In this document: in pieces, positions 6,900-51,528 of the stretch
Layout: each line of letters starts with the position of its first letter
Position numbering within the stretch: position 1 is the stretch's first letter
Source: Pollenia angustigena
Taxonomy: Eukaryota > Arthropoda > Insecta > Diptera > Polleniidae
Length of the DNA: 64,000 bases
Reading direction: 5' to 3'
NCBI GenBank assembly: GCA_930367215.1
Contig: OV884057.1
Span: 199,257,621 to 199,321,620 of the forward strand
Notes under the pieces: model-generated
The model's database searches: none
The model's input: only the letters and a program-made list of their open reading frames with translations
What the model was told of the DNA's origin: nothing
Made by a program: the position numbers and the translations under genes

Positions 6900-7729
6900 T
6901 CAATAGGCCGCTATACGATGGCTCTGCTCTTGATCATCTTCGAAAGACACCCAAGTGTTTTGTAAATATTTTCGAACATCATTATCGGTAGCAGCTAAAT
7001 CGATAAGAGGATTTTCCACTTTCTTTTGCTCATCCGGCGAGTTGTAATGAATTTCGGCTTTAGATTCTATAACACCGAAACCATTTTGTTCTTTAAGGAT
7101 ATTTTTGGTTTCGAATTTAGATCTATTCTCAAGATTGTTGTTATTGTTGCCCGTTTTAACCTGATGCACTACTGTATCACGCCAATTTTGATAGGCATTC
7201 TCGAAACAGCGTGCCACCAATAAAGTTATTTCATGGGCAATTTTACGCTTAGGACACAAAAATACATGGCAAGACAACTTCTCCTTATCCGATAAAGGAT
7301 CTGGTTCTGAACTCACAAAAGAAAAGGCATGATCATTGGAGGCGTCCACAGAACAATAGGAAATTTTGTAAATGGAGAAACGCATGAGGGAATCATCGGT
7401 GGCATGATCTAATACTTCAATACCGTCTTGTGAGACATTGACCTTAACGCGTTTCTGTGTCTTTACTTTTCTACCACCCGCTTTAGCGTTGGCAATCACA
7501 GTTTTAATAGCCTCCGAAGTAACTTTTTCGGAACGTTTATTTTCAATTGGGGTACAACCTAAATATTTAATGTCATATGATTGGAATATAGGTTTAACGT
7601 CTTCTTCATCATCTGCCGTCAAACTGCCTTCGAAATTTAATTTTAAATCGTCAATTTGTTTTGCGTCTTTGGGGGTTTTCACATCAAGACCCCAATCTTC
7701 ACCGTCTATTGCATCGTCTGATGTAAATT
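6900..7729 (-). CDS. PTB-domain adaptor (ARH/LDLRAP1-like), last coding exon
   Basis: This exon supplies residues 15-290 of a 290-residue product when joined to 21734-21776. It opens after a good acceptor (TTTTATTTTACAG) at 7730-7732 and ends at TGA 6900-6902. A phosphotyrosine-binding fold spans about residues 62-200. Visible features are YDIKYLGCTPI (about 66-76), the SIYKISYCSVD strand (about 133-143), the HVFLCPKRKIAHEIT stretch, and the closing helix ending FENAYQNW (about 190-197). The pattern is closer to ARH/LDLRAP1 than to CED-6/GULP or Dab as I know them. A clathrin-box-like LIDLA lies at 256-260. Known ARH proteins bind NPxY tails of lipoprotein-type receptors and recruit clathrin and AP-2 at the plasma membrane; that role is inferred here. 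An asparagine run sits at about 209-213. The in-frame methionine inside the intron is not the start. Confidence 0.88.
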
Positions 7730-8009
7730 CTGTAAAATAAAAAATCATTTTTATTAATAACAAATTAAGTAGTTGGTTTTTAAAAAAATTTTTTATTGAT
7801 AAACCTAACATGACCTTTAAAACAGGCGGCAAGTTTAAAAAAGTAACTAGATTTATTTAGCGATTATAGATTTAAAATGAAATTAACGTAAAGTTAATTT
7901 ATTGCGTAATTTTTAAAATGATGTTATTTGCACTATCTTTAACTCGGGGAATTTTGCCAGTGAATAAAATGCAGAATTTAAAAGAGTGGATTTTTGATTA
8001 AAGGTTTTA

Positions 8010-34344: not shown

Positions 34345-36437
34345 TTATTTTAAAACCGCATTAAAAAAAGCTCTGTCGTCGGGTTTCAAAAAAGGTATCA
34401 TGCTTTTCAAATCTTTTGATTTTTCAGAAGTTATTGCCTTTGGAGCAGCAACTGCTAATTTGGACTTTAAGATATCTTTGATATCCTTTTTGAATCGTAC
34501 ATTTTTATTTAAATTAGCATTCTTATAATTAATTTCTGTTCCAGAACCCTTATAAAAAATTTCGTATTTATGTGGTTGATATTTAATAAATTTGCACTTT
34601 GAAAATGGGAGCTGTTGAAAACAAAGTTGACTTGATAACTGAGAATACAACTTAAAATCAGAAGGCACCATCTGAATAATTTTTAATTTTACATTCTCGT
34701 AACCAAAATCGTTTAATTGTCTAATCAAAGAGACCGGGCTTCCAATTTCCATACGTCTAAGCTGTTTTTCGATTGTACTATGCACACAATCAACTTCCTG
34801 CACTAAGGAATGACCCGGTTCTGAGAACTTTTGCGTTATATCCTCAATATTTGAATTTAAGTGCAAAAAATGAAAAAGTGCTGTTGCCATTATTTGGTTC
34901 CTGTTCTGTGGAACACAAGAATCGCTCCACAGTATAATCCGCCTAATTTTAGGGTTATCAGCTACGACTCCAGTTAATATTTTGATTAGCCCACTCGCAA
35001 TTTCGTTCCCAGATCTACCATTCATAGTTTCGTTCCATATAGCGCAATACGTTAAGTTTGGAGTGTTTGGTAATATTAAAGTGGCAGTTAAATTAAAGGT
35101 AGCTAATTTCCTTTTATAAAAAAAGTTTGAACAGTAGCCTATCGGTAAATTAAAAACATTTTGCAAATCGAAACATATAATTGCATTTGATTCGTCAGTG
35201 TTTTGGCGATCAACGTCTCTTTCAGCCTTCATAAACAATTTTTCGTCCTTATGCTTCTTGTAGGCGTCTACATTTTTCGGATCTAAATTATCTTTGTTGT
35301 TCTTGTACATATAGCATTTATCACACAGATCCTTCTTTGGACGGTGAAAGGAAAGGTTGAAAGAGTAATTAAAAACATTCCTGTAAATATTGACGGACAC
35401 TGGCTGGCTAGTTTGTTCTTTGTATAAAGCATACATTCTCGCTACACTTAGATGACTTTCCAAATATTTTTTTTGGGATGATGCTCTACAGTAATGTGAG
35501 TCTAAAACAGGGAAACTGTTAATATGGCTTTTGACTTCCTCTATTTTCCCTTCATCAGTACCTTTTCTACCACGATTTTTTAATTTAGACGGTTTTGGTG
35601 CTCCAGTATCTTCATCGATATTAATAAAATAGTGATAAACTTTCCTCTCGCTTATTCCCAATGTATTAAGAAAGAATAACTTGCACGTCTGGATACATTT
35701 ACTACGAACTTGCAGGTTGTAGTGGTATGTATATTTTTTCTTGTTGGCTTCAAATTCTTCCGCTTGCTTCCGTCTTTTTATGCACTGAATTTTCTTTACA
35801 AAGGTTCCGAAAAACACCTTCTTTTCCTGCTCCTCTAAATCCCAAAATTGCCTTTTCACTTCAATTCTGTCAGCTTCGGAAATGTTTTTGTTGCATTTAT
35901 AAAAACATTTATCAGAGCATGCAGGGCGTACGCCTACCGTTTTAGCTGGAAAAACTTTGCCTTTATATCCAACATATGATTGGCCATGTTCACGCAACCT
36001 CTTTCTTATATTACATTTCCAGAGGTCAGATCTTTGCTGCCGCTTTTTACTTGTAAGCGTGGACGATGCAGAATTGCTTTCACTAGCTAATGGGTCAATA
36101 GAATTAAAATAAAGTAAGAAGGCCAACATACTTAAACTTACAAACATCTGTTGGTAAATCTCGCTCATTTAACTGAGGAGGACTATGACTCGAACTATTA
36201 GGAACAATGTTGTCTGATGCACTCGAATCCGAACCTGAAGGGCTGATACCTTGCGCAAATTTGTTATTTAATTTTCTGACCAATGCAGGAGAGTAATTTG
36301 AATCTAAAAACTCGTCATCGCGAGAAAAATCTAAATGTATATACATATAGTGTATGCAAAAATATAAATTGTATAACATCAGTTTACTTACCGCTTTGAC
36401 TATCGCTTTCACTCGTACTCAAAATTGCATCACTCAT
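34345..36437 (-). CDS. 658-residue transposon-encoded protein, putative DDE-type transposase
   Basis: Three exons: 36437-36392, 36330-36142 and 36086-34345. Introns of 61 and 55 bp have GTAAGT donors and TTTAG/TTAG acceptors. The joined length is 1977 nt, exactly 659 codons with stop. The first 80 residues are acidic and serine-rich (MSDAILSTSESDSQS onward). A Cys-rich segment lies at about 134-142 (CSDKCFYKC). LCDKCYMYK (about 332-340) looks like half of a zinc knuckle. The C-terminal half has ICFDLQNVF (Asp385), IWNETMNGRSGNEIASGL, ILWSDSCVPQNRNQ (Asp467) and EPGHSLVQEVDCVHSTIE (about 501-518). I associate this last pattern with a widespread uncharacterised metazoan family (I believe Pfam DUF7869; not checked). 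Asp385, Asp467 and one acidic residue of 509-518 are candidate RNase-H-fold catalytic residues; this is inference. The ORF is uninterrupted. Confidence 0.8.
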
Positions 36438-43848: not shown

Positions 43849-45817
43849 TCAATTATTGGCAATATCCATCCTTGTAGAAGTTGACGCTTGTGGTTCTGAT
43901 GATCTTGTTTTCTTCGTAGGTTGTTCATATTCATGGTCTGAGTCTGTATCGTCATCCGAGATACACATACTATTCAAGGGCGTGTTTCTTTCACTGTGTC
44001 CACCAATTTCAATGTCTTCATCTTCGGTGCTTTCTTCAAACTGCATAATTGTGGAACTCCACCAACAAACCTCCGCAAGCAATGCATCCAATTTTTTGCT
44101 TTTGAACCGCTTTTCAAATGGCATGGTCACCTGGTGGAACCTCTCTCCTTGTTCGTCTGATTCCTGAGGTGATTGTGCCAAAAAAGTATCGAGGTGGTGG
44201 TGCAAGAAATGCAATTTCAGCGTCATGGATGCACCGATTTTTTCGAAATAAAACAGCAACCTGTCCACTCGTTGCTGTATCTCTTCTCGCTGGACACGGT
44301 TCTTTCCTAGAACGCCTTCTATTACTTCTTTCAATGCGTTCCATGCATGTTGGTGGTCGTGCTGCTCTGAAAGCAAATGTGTGAAAGAATCACTTTTGAT
44401 CAATTTCCGAATATCAGGTCCATTGAGAATACCTGTTTTAAATACATAAGAAAAACGAAAAAATTATTGGTAATGCGAATGTATAGAAATTAACAAATTT
44501 AGATATGACAATATTGAAATACAGAGTACGATACGTACCGTTTTTAATTTTCTCATCACTGAGTTTCGGAAAGATGGATTTCAAACAGTCAAAGGCGCCG
44601 TTAACTTTTTTGACCACCACTTCAACGAATTTCCCAGCTATTCCCAGTTTCATGTGGAGCGGTGGCAACAAAATATCATCCAGGTCCTTTATCATAGGTT
44701 CATTGCGTAATTTTAATTGTTTGTTGAGCTCGGGAGTTCTTCCTTTCCAATCTTTACATTGATATTGATTTCCTTTGTATCGTGAATCCCAATTACAAAG
44801 GAAGCAGAAGTATTTTGGAAATCCGCCCTTTTCTATAATCCCTTGTAGTATGTTGACCACCTTCAGATCGCAACAAATGTTCCATTTGTGTTCATCGTAT
44901 TTGATTTTCTTCAAAATTTCGCCCAATGCTTCATACGTTTCCTTCATAGTTGTGCTGAATCCCAATGGAATGCATGGTTTTTTATTTTTTTCGTGCAGCA
45001 GCACAGCCTTCAAACTAGTAACTGAACCATCGATGAATAAACGCCAGTCGCCAGCGATATAATCCATTCCCAATTTTTTCACTAAACCTGGGATATCATG
45101 GCAGTACGTGAACGTATTTGCTTCGTCAACGGAATAAAATTTCTGAAAATCAGCTTGGCGTTGTCGGTATGATGTTGCGCTGACATTTTGCTGTGTGAGT
45201 TTTCTTCTCTTCAAAAATGATGTCAGCCATTCGGAGTCGTATTGTGATAGTCCCAGCTTGGCCACAATGTAATCCATTTCGATTTGTGGTAGCGGTTGTG
45301 GTGCACTATTTTCAATATCGGGTATCCAATCAGCATCATCCAAATCGGTCGGATTGGTGAAAACGGTTTCGGCTAGCAGGGACACAGTATCCGCACTCGG
45401 AGGTTTAGGTGCATCGGTATCAGCAGGGCGTTGCACTGGAAGTGTGGCAGTAAATGCAGCAGTGTATACTTTTGTTTTCAATTGTTGTCTGTTTAATCCA
45501 GGACGAAAATTTATGCATGCATAGCACCTGGATTCATCATGTCCAGTTGTGTCTTCCACCCAAATTACTGGCTTCATAAAAGATAACTTTCTACTTTTTC
45601 CGTGAATCCATTTTAGAAGGGTAGTATAACAACTGTTGCACACTGTGTTCGGCGTAAAATTTGCACCACTTAAATCTGCTTCATCGAAATAATTACAATA
45701 CGCGGTTTTGAATTGCTCAGTAAACAAATTTTTTCGATCTTTTTTCTGTATTTTTCGGACGATATGACCACAAACGTAACAATATTCATCCAAATATGGG
45801 CACTTGTTGTTTTCCAT
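43849..45817 (-). CDS. 620-residue transposon protein, putative RNase-H-fold transposase
   Basis: Exons 45817-44539 and 44432-43849 join across a 106-bp intron (GTACGT donor, AAAACAG acceptor). The total is 1863 nt, 621 codons with stop, with no interruption. The N-terminus holds Cys pairs CYVCGH (13-18), CNSC (60-63) and CYAC (98-101), suggesting zinc binding. The middle has WRLFIDGSVTSLKAVLLH (Asp263), NICCDLKVV (Asp317), a CFLCNWDSR Cys pair (about 338-346) and LLPPLHMKLGI (about 383-393). The second exon adds NGPDIRKLI, LKLHFLHHHLDTF, then SDEQGERFHQ (Glu523) and an acidic, serine-rich tail. I recognise this as a multi-copy, mostly unnamed protein family seen in insect and Hydra genomes. 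Asp263, Asp317 and Glu523 are my candidates for a catalytic triad; not demonstrated. Confidence 0.82.
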
Positions 45818-46812
45818 ATTGATATATTTTATGTTTTGTTGTTATTCACTTTTAAAAAACTGGAGAAAAATCACTTTTACTGTTCGCGTTCGTCGGCACT
45901 GGCTGAATGCCAAAAATCGATCAATGCACACCTATAAATACTACGTATTTTTGAATATTTTACTGCCAGGTACTTATAAATGGGCGCATATTTTAAGGGC
46001 GGCTGGCTATATACCTGATTCAGCACTTGTACGTTTCAAACTGTGCAAAACTTTCCAAATAATGACCACCCTTAAATGTGGGTGCAATTTCTGTAAAAAA
46101 ATCATATAGGTAGCCACCGGAAAAACCCAAATAATAAAAAGGTCCACTTTCCGTTTAATTGTCCACGTACATTTATTACCGCAATCATAAAAATCAAATA
46201 ACCTTTTGTTTATTCCTTTTTTTTTTAATTCTCAGAATCATGAAAAAGGTGTCAATGTTTTCTCCAAATAATGTTGTGCATATCTCGAGCAAATTTTTGA
46301 AATTCATACATTTACTTAATTGTGAATAAATGACAAACGCGTGCATCGATTTTTATGATCTTTGTCTCATTTTGCTCATAGGTTATGTGACTTTGCGAAA
46401 AAATAACTAGACTTGAAACTTTTTTCCATTTTGGATTTTTTATGTATTTTAAAAAAAAAAAATTTAAATTTTTAGGCAAAAAATAATTTTTTCCCTTCAT
46501 ACATTCATTTTTAACTTCGAAAGTGTTACTTGTATAGGAAAACAATATATGAACAGATTAAGGGAATTGTAATTCTTAATTTTTTAAAATTTATTTCAAC
46601 TAAATTGGGCTAGTGGTTGTCGAGCTATGTCAAACAACAGGGCCTAAAACGTGATAAATTCCCCTATACGATAGTACTAACTTCAAATCGATACTAACTT
46701 CAAATCGCAGGTAAGAAGACAAAACGAATGATGCAGAAATTCTTCTTTTTGGGTCTAATTTCACATACAGTTCACAGAATTGAGTTGGCAAATCATGTGT
46801 TGTACTGTGTTA

Positions 46813-48412: not shown

Positions 48413-48697
48413 TTGATAAAGTAAGTCTGTGTTCATACGGCTCATGTCTTATTGACAAGATTGCTACTTTATAGGCGAGAGGGACGAGGCGAAAAGAAAC
48501 GAGTACACCGATGCATGTACTGTCTTTACGTTTTGCTTTCTTCTTCGTTGTTTAATTTTGTTTTTGTTTTCAATATCAAATAAAACAAAATAAAAAAACA
48601 TGTCGTCAACATGACATGATTCATTTGAACGCCAATTAATGTTCAAAGAAGAAAAAGGAAGAATCTTGTCAATGAGCCAATTTAGACTACACCTTTT

Positions 48698-48950
48698 CCA
48701 ATTGTAATTCAGAAAGCGTCAACTGTAATTCAGAAAGCGTCAATTGTAATTCAGATTAGTCGGTTTTAATTCAGAAAGCGTCAATTGTAATTCAGATTAG
48801 TCAATTGTAATTCAGAAAGCGTCAATTGTAATTCAGATTAGTCAGTTGCAATTCAGAAAGCGTCAATTGTAAATGAGAAATTGTCAATTGTAATTCAGAA
48901 AACATCAATTGTAAATCAGAAATTGTCAATTGTAATTCAGAAAGCAAAAA
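48698..48950. repeat. Left subterminal array, CAATTGTAATTCAGAAAGC units
   Basis: About twelve units. Two unit types partly alternate: CAATTGTAATTCAGAAAGCG (21 bp with the next T) and CAATTGTAATTCAGATTAG (20 bp with the next T). Degenerate units with TGTAAATCAGAAATTG lie nearest the gene. Confidence 0.85.
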
Positions 48951-49054
48951 ACTTGCATTATATATTTATTTTTATTTTTTTATAACAAAAGAAAAAATGT
49001 ACACTAAATAAAGAGCTAATATTTGGTTGTATTTTTAAATGCATATATTTATGA

Positions 49055-49933
49055 TTATCGACCGACAGCCATGTCATTCATTGAGGACGCAGAAGCTTGG
49101 TGAACTGTACAGTGTTGCACAGCACGAGCGCAATCACCCCCAGTTATGGTATTTGTTGCACGATCTATAATTTCCTCCAAGTAGATCAATCTTTGTTCTA
49201 TCACGCCAGGACCTGCAACGTTTGGAACACGAATGTTGCTTTTGGCGTAGGCTTTAACTTTGGACCAAATATTTTCAATGGGACTTAGCATTGGAGAGTA
49301 GGGTCCGAGCCGCAAAAGAGATGCTGGCGTACTATTGATTACTCTTTCAAGGTTTGAATGACAAGGTGCGTTGTCAGCAACAATCACCAAATCTTCCAGC
49401 AAATTACCCATATCTTGCCACTTTTGCATTAATGTAATCACCCAGTCATTTGCTAAATGTGCAGCAAATGAACCCCTTCTACGTTCCACGTGTACGATTC
49501 CTGTAGTTGAAATTGCTCCTATTAAATGTATGTTAGGACCTCTTGATGCTGGAAGGTGTTGTACTGCTCTATCCCCAGCTCTTGCACGGCCTCTCGTTCG
49601 ACGGCAAAACAAATTAAAATTGGTTTCATCCATCCAAACAATTTGCTTTCCATGCTGTATGTAGTGGTTCAAGGATTGAACATATTCAGCTCTTTTCCTT
49701 TTATTTGCCTCAGAGTTCATTGTAACAGGTTCAAAGTGTACTTGTTTTGTAGAGAACATTCTGCCTTCTAAATAATTACCTATTGTTGACACAGATAACG
49801 ATTTGTTGAAATGACTTATAACCTTTTCTTTAAGCTGCATTAATGTTATGGTAGAGTCTTCTTCTACCCACGAAAGCATCAAATCAATTTCATCATTAGA
49901 AAGGATTTTTGGCTTTGTACCAACATTTCGGTA
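49055..49933 (-). pseudogene. IS630/Tc1-type DDE transposase domain
   Basis: Open from 49933 (YRNVGTKPKILSNDE) to a stop at 49055. Catalytic motifs are WMDETNFNLF (first Asp), VIVADNAPCH (second Asp) and GPYSPMLSPIENIWSK (Glu), with 32 residues between the second Asp and the Glu as I count. This is the family that excises and inserts DNA at TA dinucleotides in the nucleus. The frame is shifted relative to the upstream helix-turn-helix/RING frame: TAA stops lie at 49936-49934 in this frame and 49944-49942 in the other. No independent start codon is evident. The domain looks undamaged, but the copy as a whole cannot make the full protein. Confidence 0.85.
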
Positions 49934-49971
49934 TTACCAGATTAGATCCAAAAATATGCGGTCTTATATTT

Positions 49972-50363
49972 GAAGCACAGCCGCGAATAACGTTTTAAGT
50001 TACAAAATAATAATTTTTCAGGAGAGCAAAAAAACGTTGCTTGACAGGCAGCATTATTTGCTTTAAAAATTTTATTTTTCTATTATTAAAAATTATGATA
50101 ATAAAAACTTTTATGCAAAAGGCTTTTAAAACATTATTCCGCACTGCAAAAACATTTCGGTTTCATCATTTTTTTTTTTTGTTATTAACTTGCAATGTTC
50201 TTCCACTGGCTGACACTTTGTATGCCATTTTTAAGGCGTTAAGGTGCATAGTTTTGGTTGATTTGATGTTTAAACGGTGTAAGAGAGAAAGGTCAACGGT
50301 TATCTGCAAAATAACAGTTTTTGCAAAATGTGTCGTTTACAACGTTATTCGCGGCTGTGCTTC
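49972..50363. mobile_element. 392-bp MITE inside the transposase helix-turn-helix, ATTT duplication
   Basis: TIR GAAGCACAGCCGCGAATAAC, inverted at the right as GTTATTCGCGGCTGTGCTTC. It is flanked by ATTT (49968-49971, 50364-50367). The right boundary creates the TGA that ends the RING frame. The interior contains ATTTTTCAGGAGAGC, shared with other MITEs in the window. Confidence 0.88.
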
Positions 50364-50646
50364 ATTTAATTCCTAGTGATGTAGCCAAACCTATCCAATC
50401 TTCACCTCTGTTAGCACAATTAACTATTCTTTCACGGTCTTTTGCACAATGTTTTTTATATTTTTTTCTTTCATTTTCATCTTTTCCAGTCACTATTGCT
50501 CTGCAGATTGGACAAGCACTATCTTCAACATCCGTTATGGGCTGTGCGCACTTCTTGTGAAAGAAATGTAGGCATGGTAGCAAGCGTATAACTGAATACC
50601 TTGTCATAACAGATTGGCAAATTGCACAATTATCCTTAAATTCCAT
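50362..50646 (-). pseudogene. RING-H2 finger and start of helix-turn-helix, 5' part of the transposon gene
   Basis: ATG at 50646 opens MEFKDNCAIC. The zinc ligands are Cys7, Cys10, Cys25, His27, His30, Cys33, Cys45 and Cys48 (C-x2-C-x14-C-x-H-x2-H-x2-C-x11-C-x2-C), a complete RING-H2. RING fingers usually recruit ubiquitin-conjugating enzymes. After a basic linker the sequence reads RERIVNCANRGEDWIGLA and TSLGIK, the first two helices of an IS630/Tc1-type helix-turn-helix, and then stops at a TGA formed by the MITE junction. Skipping the MITE and one ATTT copy restores YKTAYFWI, the expected recognition helix, before a frameshift. It is therefore the N-terminal part of the neighbouring transposase gene, not a separate host gene. 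Confidence 0.8.
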
Positions 50647-50767
50647 TTTTTTTTTTATTTATGTCAATATTACGTTTTAAACTGTTTAAAGTTTTAAATA
50701 GACTATGTATTTACATACATATATTTAAATGGATTTAGTGATTTTTCTTTTTTACATTTATTTTATT

Positions 50768-51008
50768 CTGAATTACAATTGACGCTTTCTGAATTACAAT
50801 TGACAATTGCTGATTTACAATTGACGCTTTCTGAATTACAACTGACTAATCTGAATTACAATTGACGCTTTCTGAATTACAATTGACTAATCTGAATTAC
50901 AATTGACGCTTTCTGAATTTCAACTGACTAATCTGAATTACAATTGACGCTTTCTGAATTACAATTGACTAATCTGAATTACAATTGACGCTTTCTGAAT
51001 TACAACTG
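50768..51008. repeat. Right subterminal array, CAATTGTAATTCAGAAAGC units
   Basis: About twelve units in inverse orientation to the left array, with the same two unit types (GCTTTCTGAATTACAATTG and CTAATCTGAATTACAATTG) in near-regular alternation. Confidence 0.85.
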
Positions 51009-51024
51009 GAAAAGGTGTAGACTA

Positions 51025-51431: not shown

Positions 51432-51528
51432 AATCCAGTGTAGTTTGGAAAGAACAAAAGTTAATCCGACTAAAAATTAGTCTAGTCTAAATTGGCTCAA
51501 TAAGACAAGAGCCGTATGAACTCAGACT

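Follow-up and report, generated by a model that had tools for sequence, protein, structure and literature searches.

A RING-H2 finger and a DD32E transposase encoded by one gene in an insect Tc1/mariner-type transposon

A 64,000-nucleotide stretch of contig OV884057.1 of the fly Pollenia angustigena (hereafter, the window) carries a copy of a young IS630/Tc1/mariner-type transposon, the single gene of which consists of a RING-H2 finger, a linker of fixed length, two helix-turn-helix motifs and a DD32E catalytic domain. The joining of RING and transposase in one protein is a real lineage, not an accident of one broken copy. Taken as a whole, the element is probably best explained, in our judgement, as a RING-transposase fusion that moves by cut-and-paste at TA sites and whose RING would serve in cis as an E3 ubiquitin ligase, with the transposase itself as the likeliest target.

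The fused gene in the window and in its sister copies

A preliminary description of the window proposed an ancestral protein of RING, helix-turn-helix (HTH) and DDE parts, and named intact copies with RING and DDE domains on one open reading frame (ORF) as the way to check it. Such copies were found in the same genome and among the homologues listed (at least 46), and the ancestral protein is supported by a 401-aa open copy as well as by many full-length relatives. The search of the genome (1.37 Gb, 31 contigs) gave at least 136 matches to the DDE part and at least 108 to the whole protein P0001; as the protein searches score best candidates only, these counts are lower bounds. The open copy, L003 (contig C2, 70.04 Mb), is a single ORF from ATG to stop with RING, HTH and DDE parts and no internal stop, and Pfam detected both zf-RING_2 and DDE_3 in it, the former above cut-off in L003 and in the window copy. 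The frame of L004 is as in L003 with one stop, that of L005 is open with one zinc ligand and a short stretch gone, and L002, L006, L007 and L008 are more heavily damaged. In all eight loci L001-L008, the transposase is preceded on its own strand by a RING match (partial in L002). The sister copies L002-L008 share the same ends in 7/7 (one mismatch, in L002), with TA on both sides in 7/7. Because coding identity to L003 is 97-99% for L002, L004, L005 and the window copy and 94% for L006, the family is considered young. In five of the eight loci (L001-L005), C precedes the left TA and G follows the right TA, which hints at a CTAG target preference.

The window element is a decayed cut-and-paste transposon, a dead copy with RING-H2, two HTH motifs and DDE. 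It covers 2328 bp on the minus strand, with the ends CACCTTTTCC / GGAAAAGGTG and a TA on each side. The preliminary description had recognised the right element but placed its limits a few bases off the true ends at 48690 and 51017. The features are as follows (positions in the window).

48690..51017, minus strand: whole transposon; same ends in 7/7 sister copies, with one mismatch in one
48688..48689: left TA target-site duplication, read from the window sequence
51018..51019: right TA target-site duplication, read from the window sequence
48699..48945: subterminal repeat array of 20-21 bp units (CAATTGTAATTCAG), from repeat analysis of the window
50764..51008: subterminal repeat array in inverted orientation, at the gene's 5' end, from repeat analysis of the window
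50497..50646, minus strand: RING-H2 finger, residues 1-50 from the start codon, from Pfam zf-RING_2, the AlphaFold2 (AF2) model and fold matches
50362..50646, minus strand: ORF of RING, linker and first half of HTH1, ending in ...TSLGIK; its TGA lies on the edge of the insertion
49972..50363: inserted 392-bp miniature inverted-repeat transposable element (MITE), with ATTT at 49968-49971 and 50364-50367
49944..49967, minus strand: YKTAYFWI, the recognition-helix part of HTH1, followed by an in-frame stop; matches LGIKYKTAYFWI of L003
49055..49933, minus strand: ORF of HTH2 and the DDE (DD32E) catalytic domain to its natural stop, from the DDE_3 match

The terminal inverted repeats have 53-nt arms that are 94% complementary, with TA and 6 nt of flank per side included. 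The host site is another repeat, the second end of which, near 51485, reads GAGCCAATTTAGACTAGACTAATT; this equals the window flanks minus the element and one TA, and is a related uninterrupted sequence.

Three lesions split the gene in the window: the 392-bp MITE, a stop within the frame and a frameshift. As the preliminary description had stated, a RING-H2 opens an ORF at the ATG at 50646 (minus strand; zf-RING_2 at residues 5-49, E = 3.6e-10), which is ended by a TGA at 50362-50364 spanning the MITE edge, and re-reading of the sequence confirmed that YKTAYFWI lies beyond the MITE and one ATTT. The DDE frame had been placed one frameshift further on; the frameshift is present, but an in-frame stop stands there too. 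This downstream ORF matches DDE_3 with E = 1.3e-18 and is 98-99% identical to the sister copies L002-L005. The MITE is private to the window copy, because its end sequence, allowing up to 3 mismatches, was found in 0/7 of the sister copies L002-L008.

Relatives, conservation and origin of the RING

The DDE search found 186 proteins, of which 120 were listed, and a profile search found 348, of which 120 were listed. Among the matches listed, 46/120 carry PF13639 (zf-RING_2) and PF13358 (DDE_3) in one protein according to the precomputed Pfam column, and Rhagoletis pomonella and Zophobas morio are named among their sources. From the 120 proteins, 51 were picked for a whole or partial RING and aligned, 44 with a complete N-terminus and 7 starting after the first Cys pair. 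All eight zinc ligands are present in RING-H2 order in 42/44 complete rows (exceptions P0039 and P0078), and I/V/L before C2, Pro after C7 and Arg/Lys after C8 occur together in 40/42 rows (exceptions P0013 and P0032). Taken singly, I/V/L before C2 is found in 43/44 rows, and Pro46 and Arg49 each in 49/51. We take the residue before C2 and the Pro after C7 to be E2 contacts and the Arg/Lys after C8 to be the linchpin. The best sequence matches of the RING in the PDB are E3 ligases, namely Arkadia, RNF165/ARK2C, RNF13, RNF126 and RNF38.

The rest of the protein looks like an ordinary transposase. Residues 64-399 of the structure model align with residues 5-345 of Mos1, the RING standing ahead of the aligned part, and helices 68-104 and 122-164, within the Mos1-aligned span, form the two HTH motifs. 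The catalytic residues D211, D296 and E329 are kept in 51/51, 50/51 and 49/51 rows, and the DD32E spacing occurs in 37/39 RING rows in which the motif was found, the other 2 having 30. Mean pairwise identity is 48% for the RING, 32% for the linker, 57% for HTH1 and 64% for the DDE core. The distance from C8 to Asp70 is 22 in 44/44 rows, and therefore the linker varies in letters, not in length. Over the 44 rows, RING distances correlate with DDE distances (r = 0.58, with 0/2000 permutations as high), and HTH distances correlate with DDE distances at 0.80. Patterns run against contigs of viruses and of prokaryote genomes hit 36 and 22 stretches, respectively; none of these was a relative, so that they gave no second source of such DNA beyond this genome.

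The origin of the RING was examined in trees. In a 120-row tree of the transposase part alone, a clade of 67 rows (Shimodaira-Hasegawa-like approximate likelihood-ratio test, SH-aLRT, 93) contains 44 RING, 7 partial, 2 RING-end-only and 14 no-RING rows; the divergent RING row P0078 falls outside it, unplaced. The RING is absent from a neighbouring group of 14 rows, the spacing of which is 33 (DD33E) in 11/11 measurable rows. Nine of these rows start at about residue 58-60 of the RING proteins, and therefore the RING looks like a clean addition before an ordinary transposase. RING-less relatives, which the preliminary description had named as possible refutation, exist in the neighbouring group (14) and in the clade (14); for some of the latter, as in P0033 or through an exon layout like that of L010, the lack of a RING may be only apparent. 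P0033 begins inside the RING with a changed ligand, the other in-clade no-RING rows begin at or after the linker or bear an unrelated prefix, and 11/14 have the clade's 32-residue spacing; in some of them the RING may truly have been lost. In an 83-row tree, which left out 13 of the 14 in-clade no-RING rows and 24 others and counted P0033 as RING, a single branch separates the RING rows from the others (support 88, not starred), and one change is needed. Two changes are needed in an 82-row tree, in which 12 of the 14 no-RING rows were restored, P0008 and P0020 were left out and own-genome relatives were added. A single gain of the RING is likely from these trees. A homologue search with residues 1-75 of P0001 gave P0001 alone (6 candidates), so that a cellular donor was not found by it.

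A second subfamily in the same genome has an intron-like stretch. L010-L013 and L019 are 44-54% identical to the DDE part of the window and are closely preceded, on the same strand, by a RING reading frame. This frame ends in ...CPICRS(K/E)VE in L011, L012 and L019, with a stop at that place in L010, and the end of the RING frame is absent from L013. Between RING and transposase frames stands GTAAGT...CTAACCTTCGTAG, 93 bp in L010 and 95 bp in L011 and L012. When the GTAAGT...TTCGTAG stretch is removed from L012, CPICRSKVEESERITRKKYKTYSNTD results, in which the last zinc Cys and the Asp that opens the HTH are 22 residues apart, as in the intronless relatives. The RING of this subfamily thus looks like a separate exon; in L009, RING and transposase parts are 2.3 kb apart. 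In the tree, L010, with its upstream RING frame, is joined (support 95) to P0035 (Lucilia cuprina) and P0036, two rows without a predicted RING, and for this reason gene prediction of exon 2 only is a likely cause of such no-RING rows. The picture is not a simple one: of the 26 own-genome loci L001-L026, 18 have a RING hit and 8 (L014-L018, L020, L025 and L026) have none. In the intron-bearing subfamily, a piece of the transposase C-terminus (~80 aa) is also found directly upstream of the RING, on the opposite strand, and the same part occurs elsewhere as separate 117-aa open frames; this might be a nested end or a second, divergent gene. These observations come from L010-L013, L019 and L020.

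Other relatives in the genome were also observed. Of the 108 P0001 matches, 42 (L015-L018 and others) span only residues ~174-187 to 323-341 of the transposase at 53-59% identity, many of them in open frames of ~209 aa. The four loci read have no RING, and the matches are classed as a core-only derivative family. L014 (2266-3983; G000:C4, 147.67 Mb) has a 349-aa open frame 36% identical to residues 57-399 of P0001, in which the first catalytic Asp is lost (WLGDTNF for W-D-E-T-N-F). A zf-AD (ZAD) match with intron-like gaps precedes the frame (Pfam E 6.5e-5, below cut-off), and neither a RING nor ends of the window family were seen in the 10 kb read. L014 has the look of a host gene derived from a transposase of this group; it sits on a long branch, and its place in the tree is unsure. 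The dead-transposase stretch is repeated three times (L014, L046 and L047) in 11,468-bp steps; L046 and L047 are 99.96% identical over 10 kb, and L014 matches them at 99.9-100% from base 2711 on. Because L014 differs upstream of that base, only this first copy has the upstream ZAD part.

Elsewhere in the window, long ORFs on the minus strand at 34345-36168 and 43849-45841 (607, 460 and 204 aa scanned) have no Pfam match at E 0.01. At 6903-7856, also on the minus strand, there is an exon with a phosphotyrosine-interaction (PID/PTB) domain (E 3.1e-19), which presumably resembles ced-6.

Possible role of the RING

The following mechanism is proposed. First, as suggested by the fold, the ends and the target duplication, and in analogy with Mos1, the two HTH motifs would bind the element's own ends, and a dimer would bring these ends together and move the element by cut-and-paste at TA. 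Second, as suggested by its E2-contact residues, the RING would recruit E2~ubiquitin and act as an E3 ligase in cis; because these residues are kept in 40/42 rows and the RING is akin in sequence to E3 ligases, an active ubiquitin ligase is the most likely reading. Since the RING sits at a fixed distance before HTH1, we propose that it acts on its own complex, and the likeliest target would be the transposase, whether still within the paired-end complex or after it. Self-ubiquitination could cap the amount of transposase and/or clear it from cleaved DNA, and neighbouring chromatin or repair proteins would be an alternative target by analogy with RAG1. The RING most likely works like that of RAG1 without being its relative. 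On balance, we favour the view that this insect Tc1/mariner-type lineage has an in-transposase ubiquitin ligase that was gained once at the N-terminus, has been kept since, is independent of RAG1/Chapaev and acts on the transpososome, which would be a second evolution of the RAG1-like layout.

Some observations weigh against this view. The Arkadia-type Trp four residues after C6 is absent in 51/51 rows. Met14 and Arg16 in loop 1 of the RING are near-invariant, which suggests an added role, perhaps contact with DNA or the core.

Other explanations were considered. It is possible, if rather unlikely, that the RING ubiquitinates host proteins (silencing factors, histones or repair proteins) in favour of transposition, rather than the transposase. 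The same conserved E2 surface would serve this purpose, and the targets of RAG1 fit it. The RAG1 RING has ubiquitin-ligase activity (PMC4411706, cited, like the papers below, from its available passages). However, the constant 22-residue gap between RING and HTH has no extra substrate-binding domain.

It is more doubtful that the RING, devoid of ligase activity, serves as an accessory module for DNA binding or dimerisation and reads the subterminal repeat arrays. The 20-21-bp repeat arrays adjoin both ends, the RING region is mildly basic over 44 rows (mean net charge +2.1, range -4 to +5; median pI 8.4), Arg16 and Met14 in loop 1 are near-invariant as noted, and the cysteine-rich cross-brace domain of piggyBac is a precedent (PMC8086355). 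However, the non-ligand residues Pro46 and Arg49 (49/51 each) and I/V/L before C2 (43/44) are conserved, and the sequence matches of the RING are E3 ligases. This non-ligand Pro, Arg and I/V/L pattern is that of E2-binding RINGs. Finally, the chance neighbourhood of a host RING fragment and a transposase in one copy, for which only the broken window copy speaks, can be dismissed, because L003 is one ORF, the RING is upstream in 8/8 loci L001-L008, and both domains are present in 46/120 listed relatives.

If the RING is active as we propose, a lineage within one of the most widespread transposon superfamilies carries its own switch for protein turnover or complex remodelling. The self-limitation of mariner elements is debated, since overproduction inhibition has been claimed for Hsmar1 and Himar1 and not seen for Mos1 (PMC3419177); the regulator proposed here would sit in the enzyme and be separately mutable. 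In addition, the parallel to RAG1 on an unrelated transposase would allow the question of why a recombinase benefits from a ligase to be asked in two unrelated systems. These proposals are testable, since a single insect genome contains a set of copies that are 97-99% alike and include one in which the fused gene is open.

Comparison with known systems

Judged by its sequence, the element is placed in the IS630-Tc1-mariner superfamily, and by spacing in no named family: it fits none of DD34E, DD34D, DD37D, DD37E, DD36E and DD41D. DD32E is not among the families named by spacing in the available passages of PMC6875036, DD33E is mentioned in pogo (PMC8472432), and no paper with the term DD32E was found in the open-licence literature search. 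No Tc1/mariner element with a RING is described in the listed titles, abstract openings and consulted passages of the open-licence literature searched (Repbase entries being outside its scope), which agrees with the preliminary description that no named lineage of this kind has an N-terminal RING; the word RING is likewise not found in the available main text of a superfamily survey (PMC7325037). Mentions of RING in PMC3630058 (Isis-like gag and Pao), PMC12910113 (an abbreviation legend) and PMC10799480 (RAG1), as far as their passages go, are unrelated.

The present element departs from Mos1 and the DD34D mariners by its N-terminal RING, its long subterminal repeat arrays, its DD32E spacing and an E in place of D at the third catalytic position. 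It shares the RING-H2 ligands and the Ile/Pro/Arg at E2-contact positions with Arkadia, RNF165, RNF13, RNF126 and RNF38, but unlike the Arkadia-type ligases it has no Trp four residues after C6 and is fused to a transposase. The cysteine-rich domain of piggyBac stands at the C-terminus. Like the RING here, it is a cross-brace zinc domain in a transposase, but it is PHD-like, binds DNA at the transposon ends and belongs to a different superfamily (PMC8086355). A RING or C3HC4 finger in a DNA transposon is also known from the Mutator element Ghost of Myzus cerasi, where the RING is in a separate ORF, and from the oomycete element 37_Pi of the Phytophthora sub-group (PMC6446971); in contrast to the present element, both are of the Mutator superfamily.

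According to the available passages of PMC4411706, a RING is found in two Chapaev subgroups, and RING and Chapa domains in no other known transposable elements. In the present proteins, Pfam gives only DDE_3, HTH and RING families above cut-offs and no domain in the 22-residue gap, no search aimed at Chapa having been made. Although RAG1/Chapaev belong to a different transposase superfamily, they have, as here, a RING N-terminal to a DDE-type recombinase in one protein, and they are the nearest precedent for the layout of this transposon.
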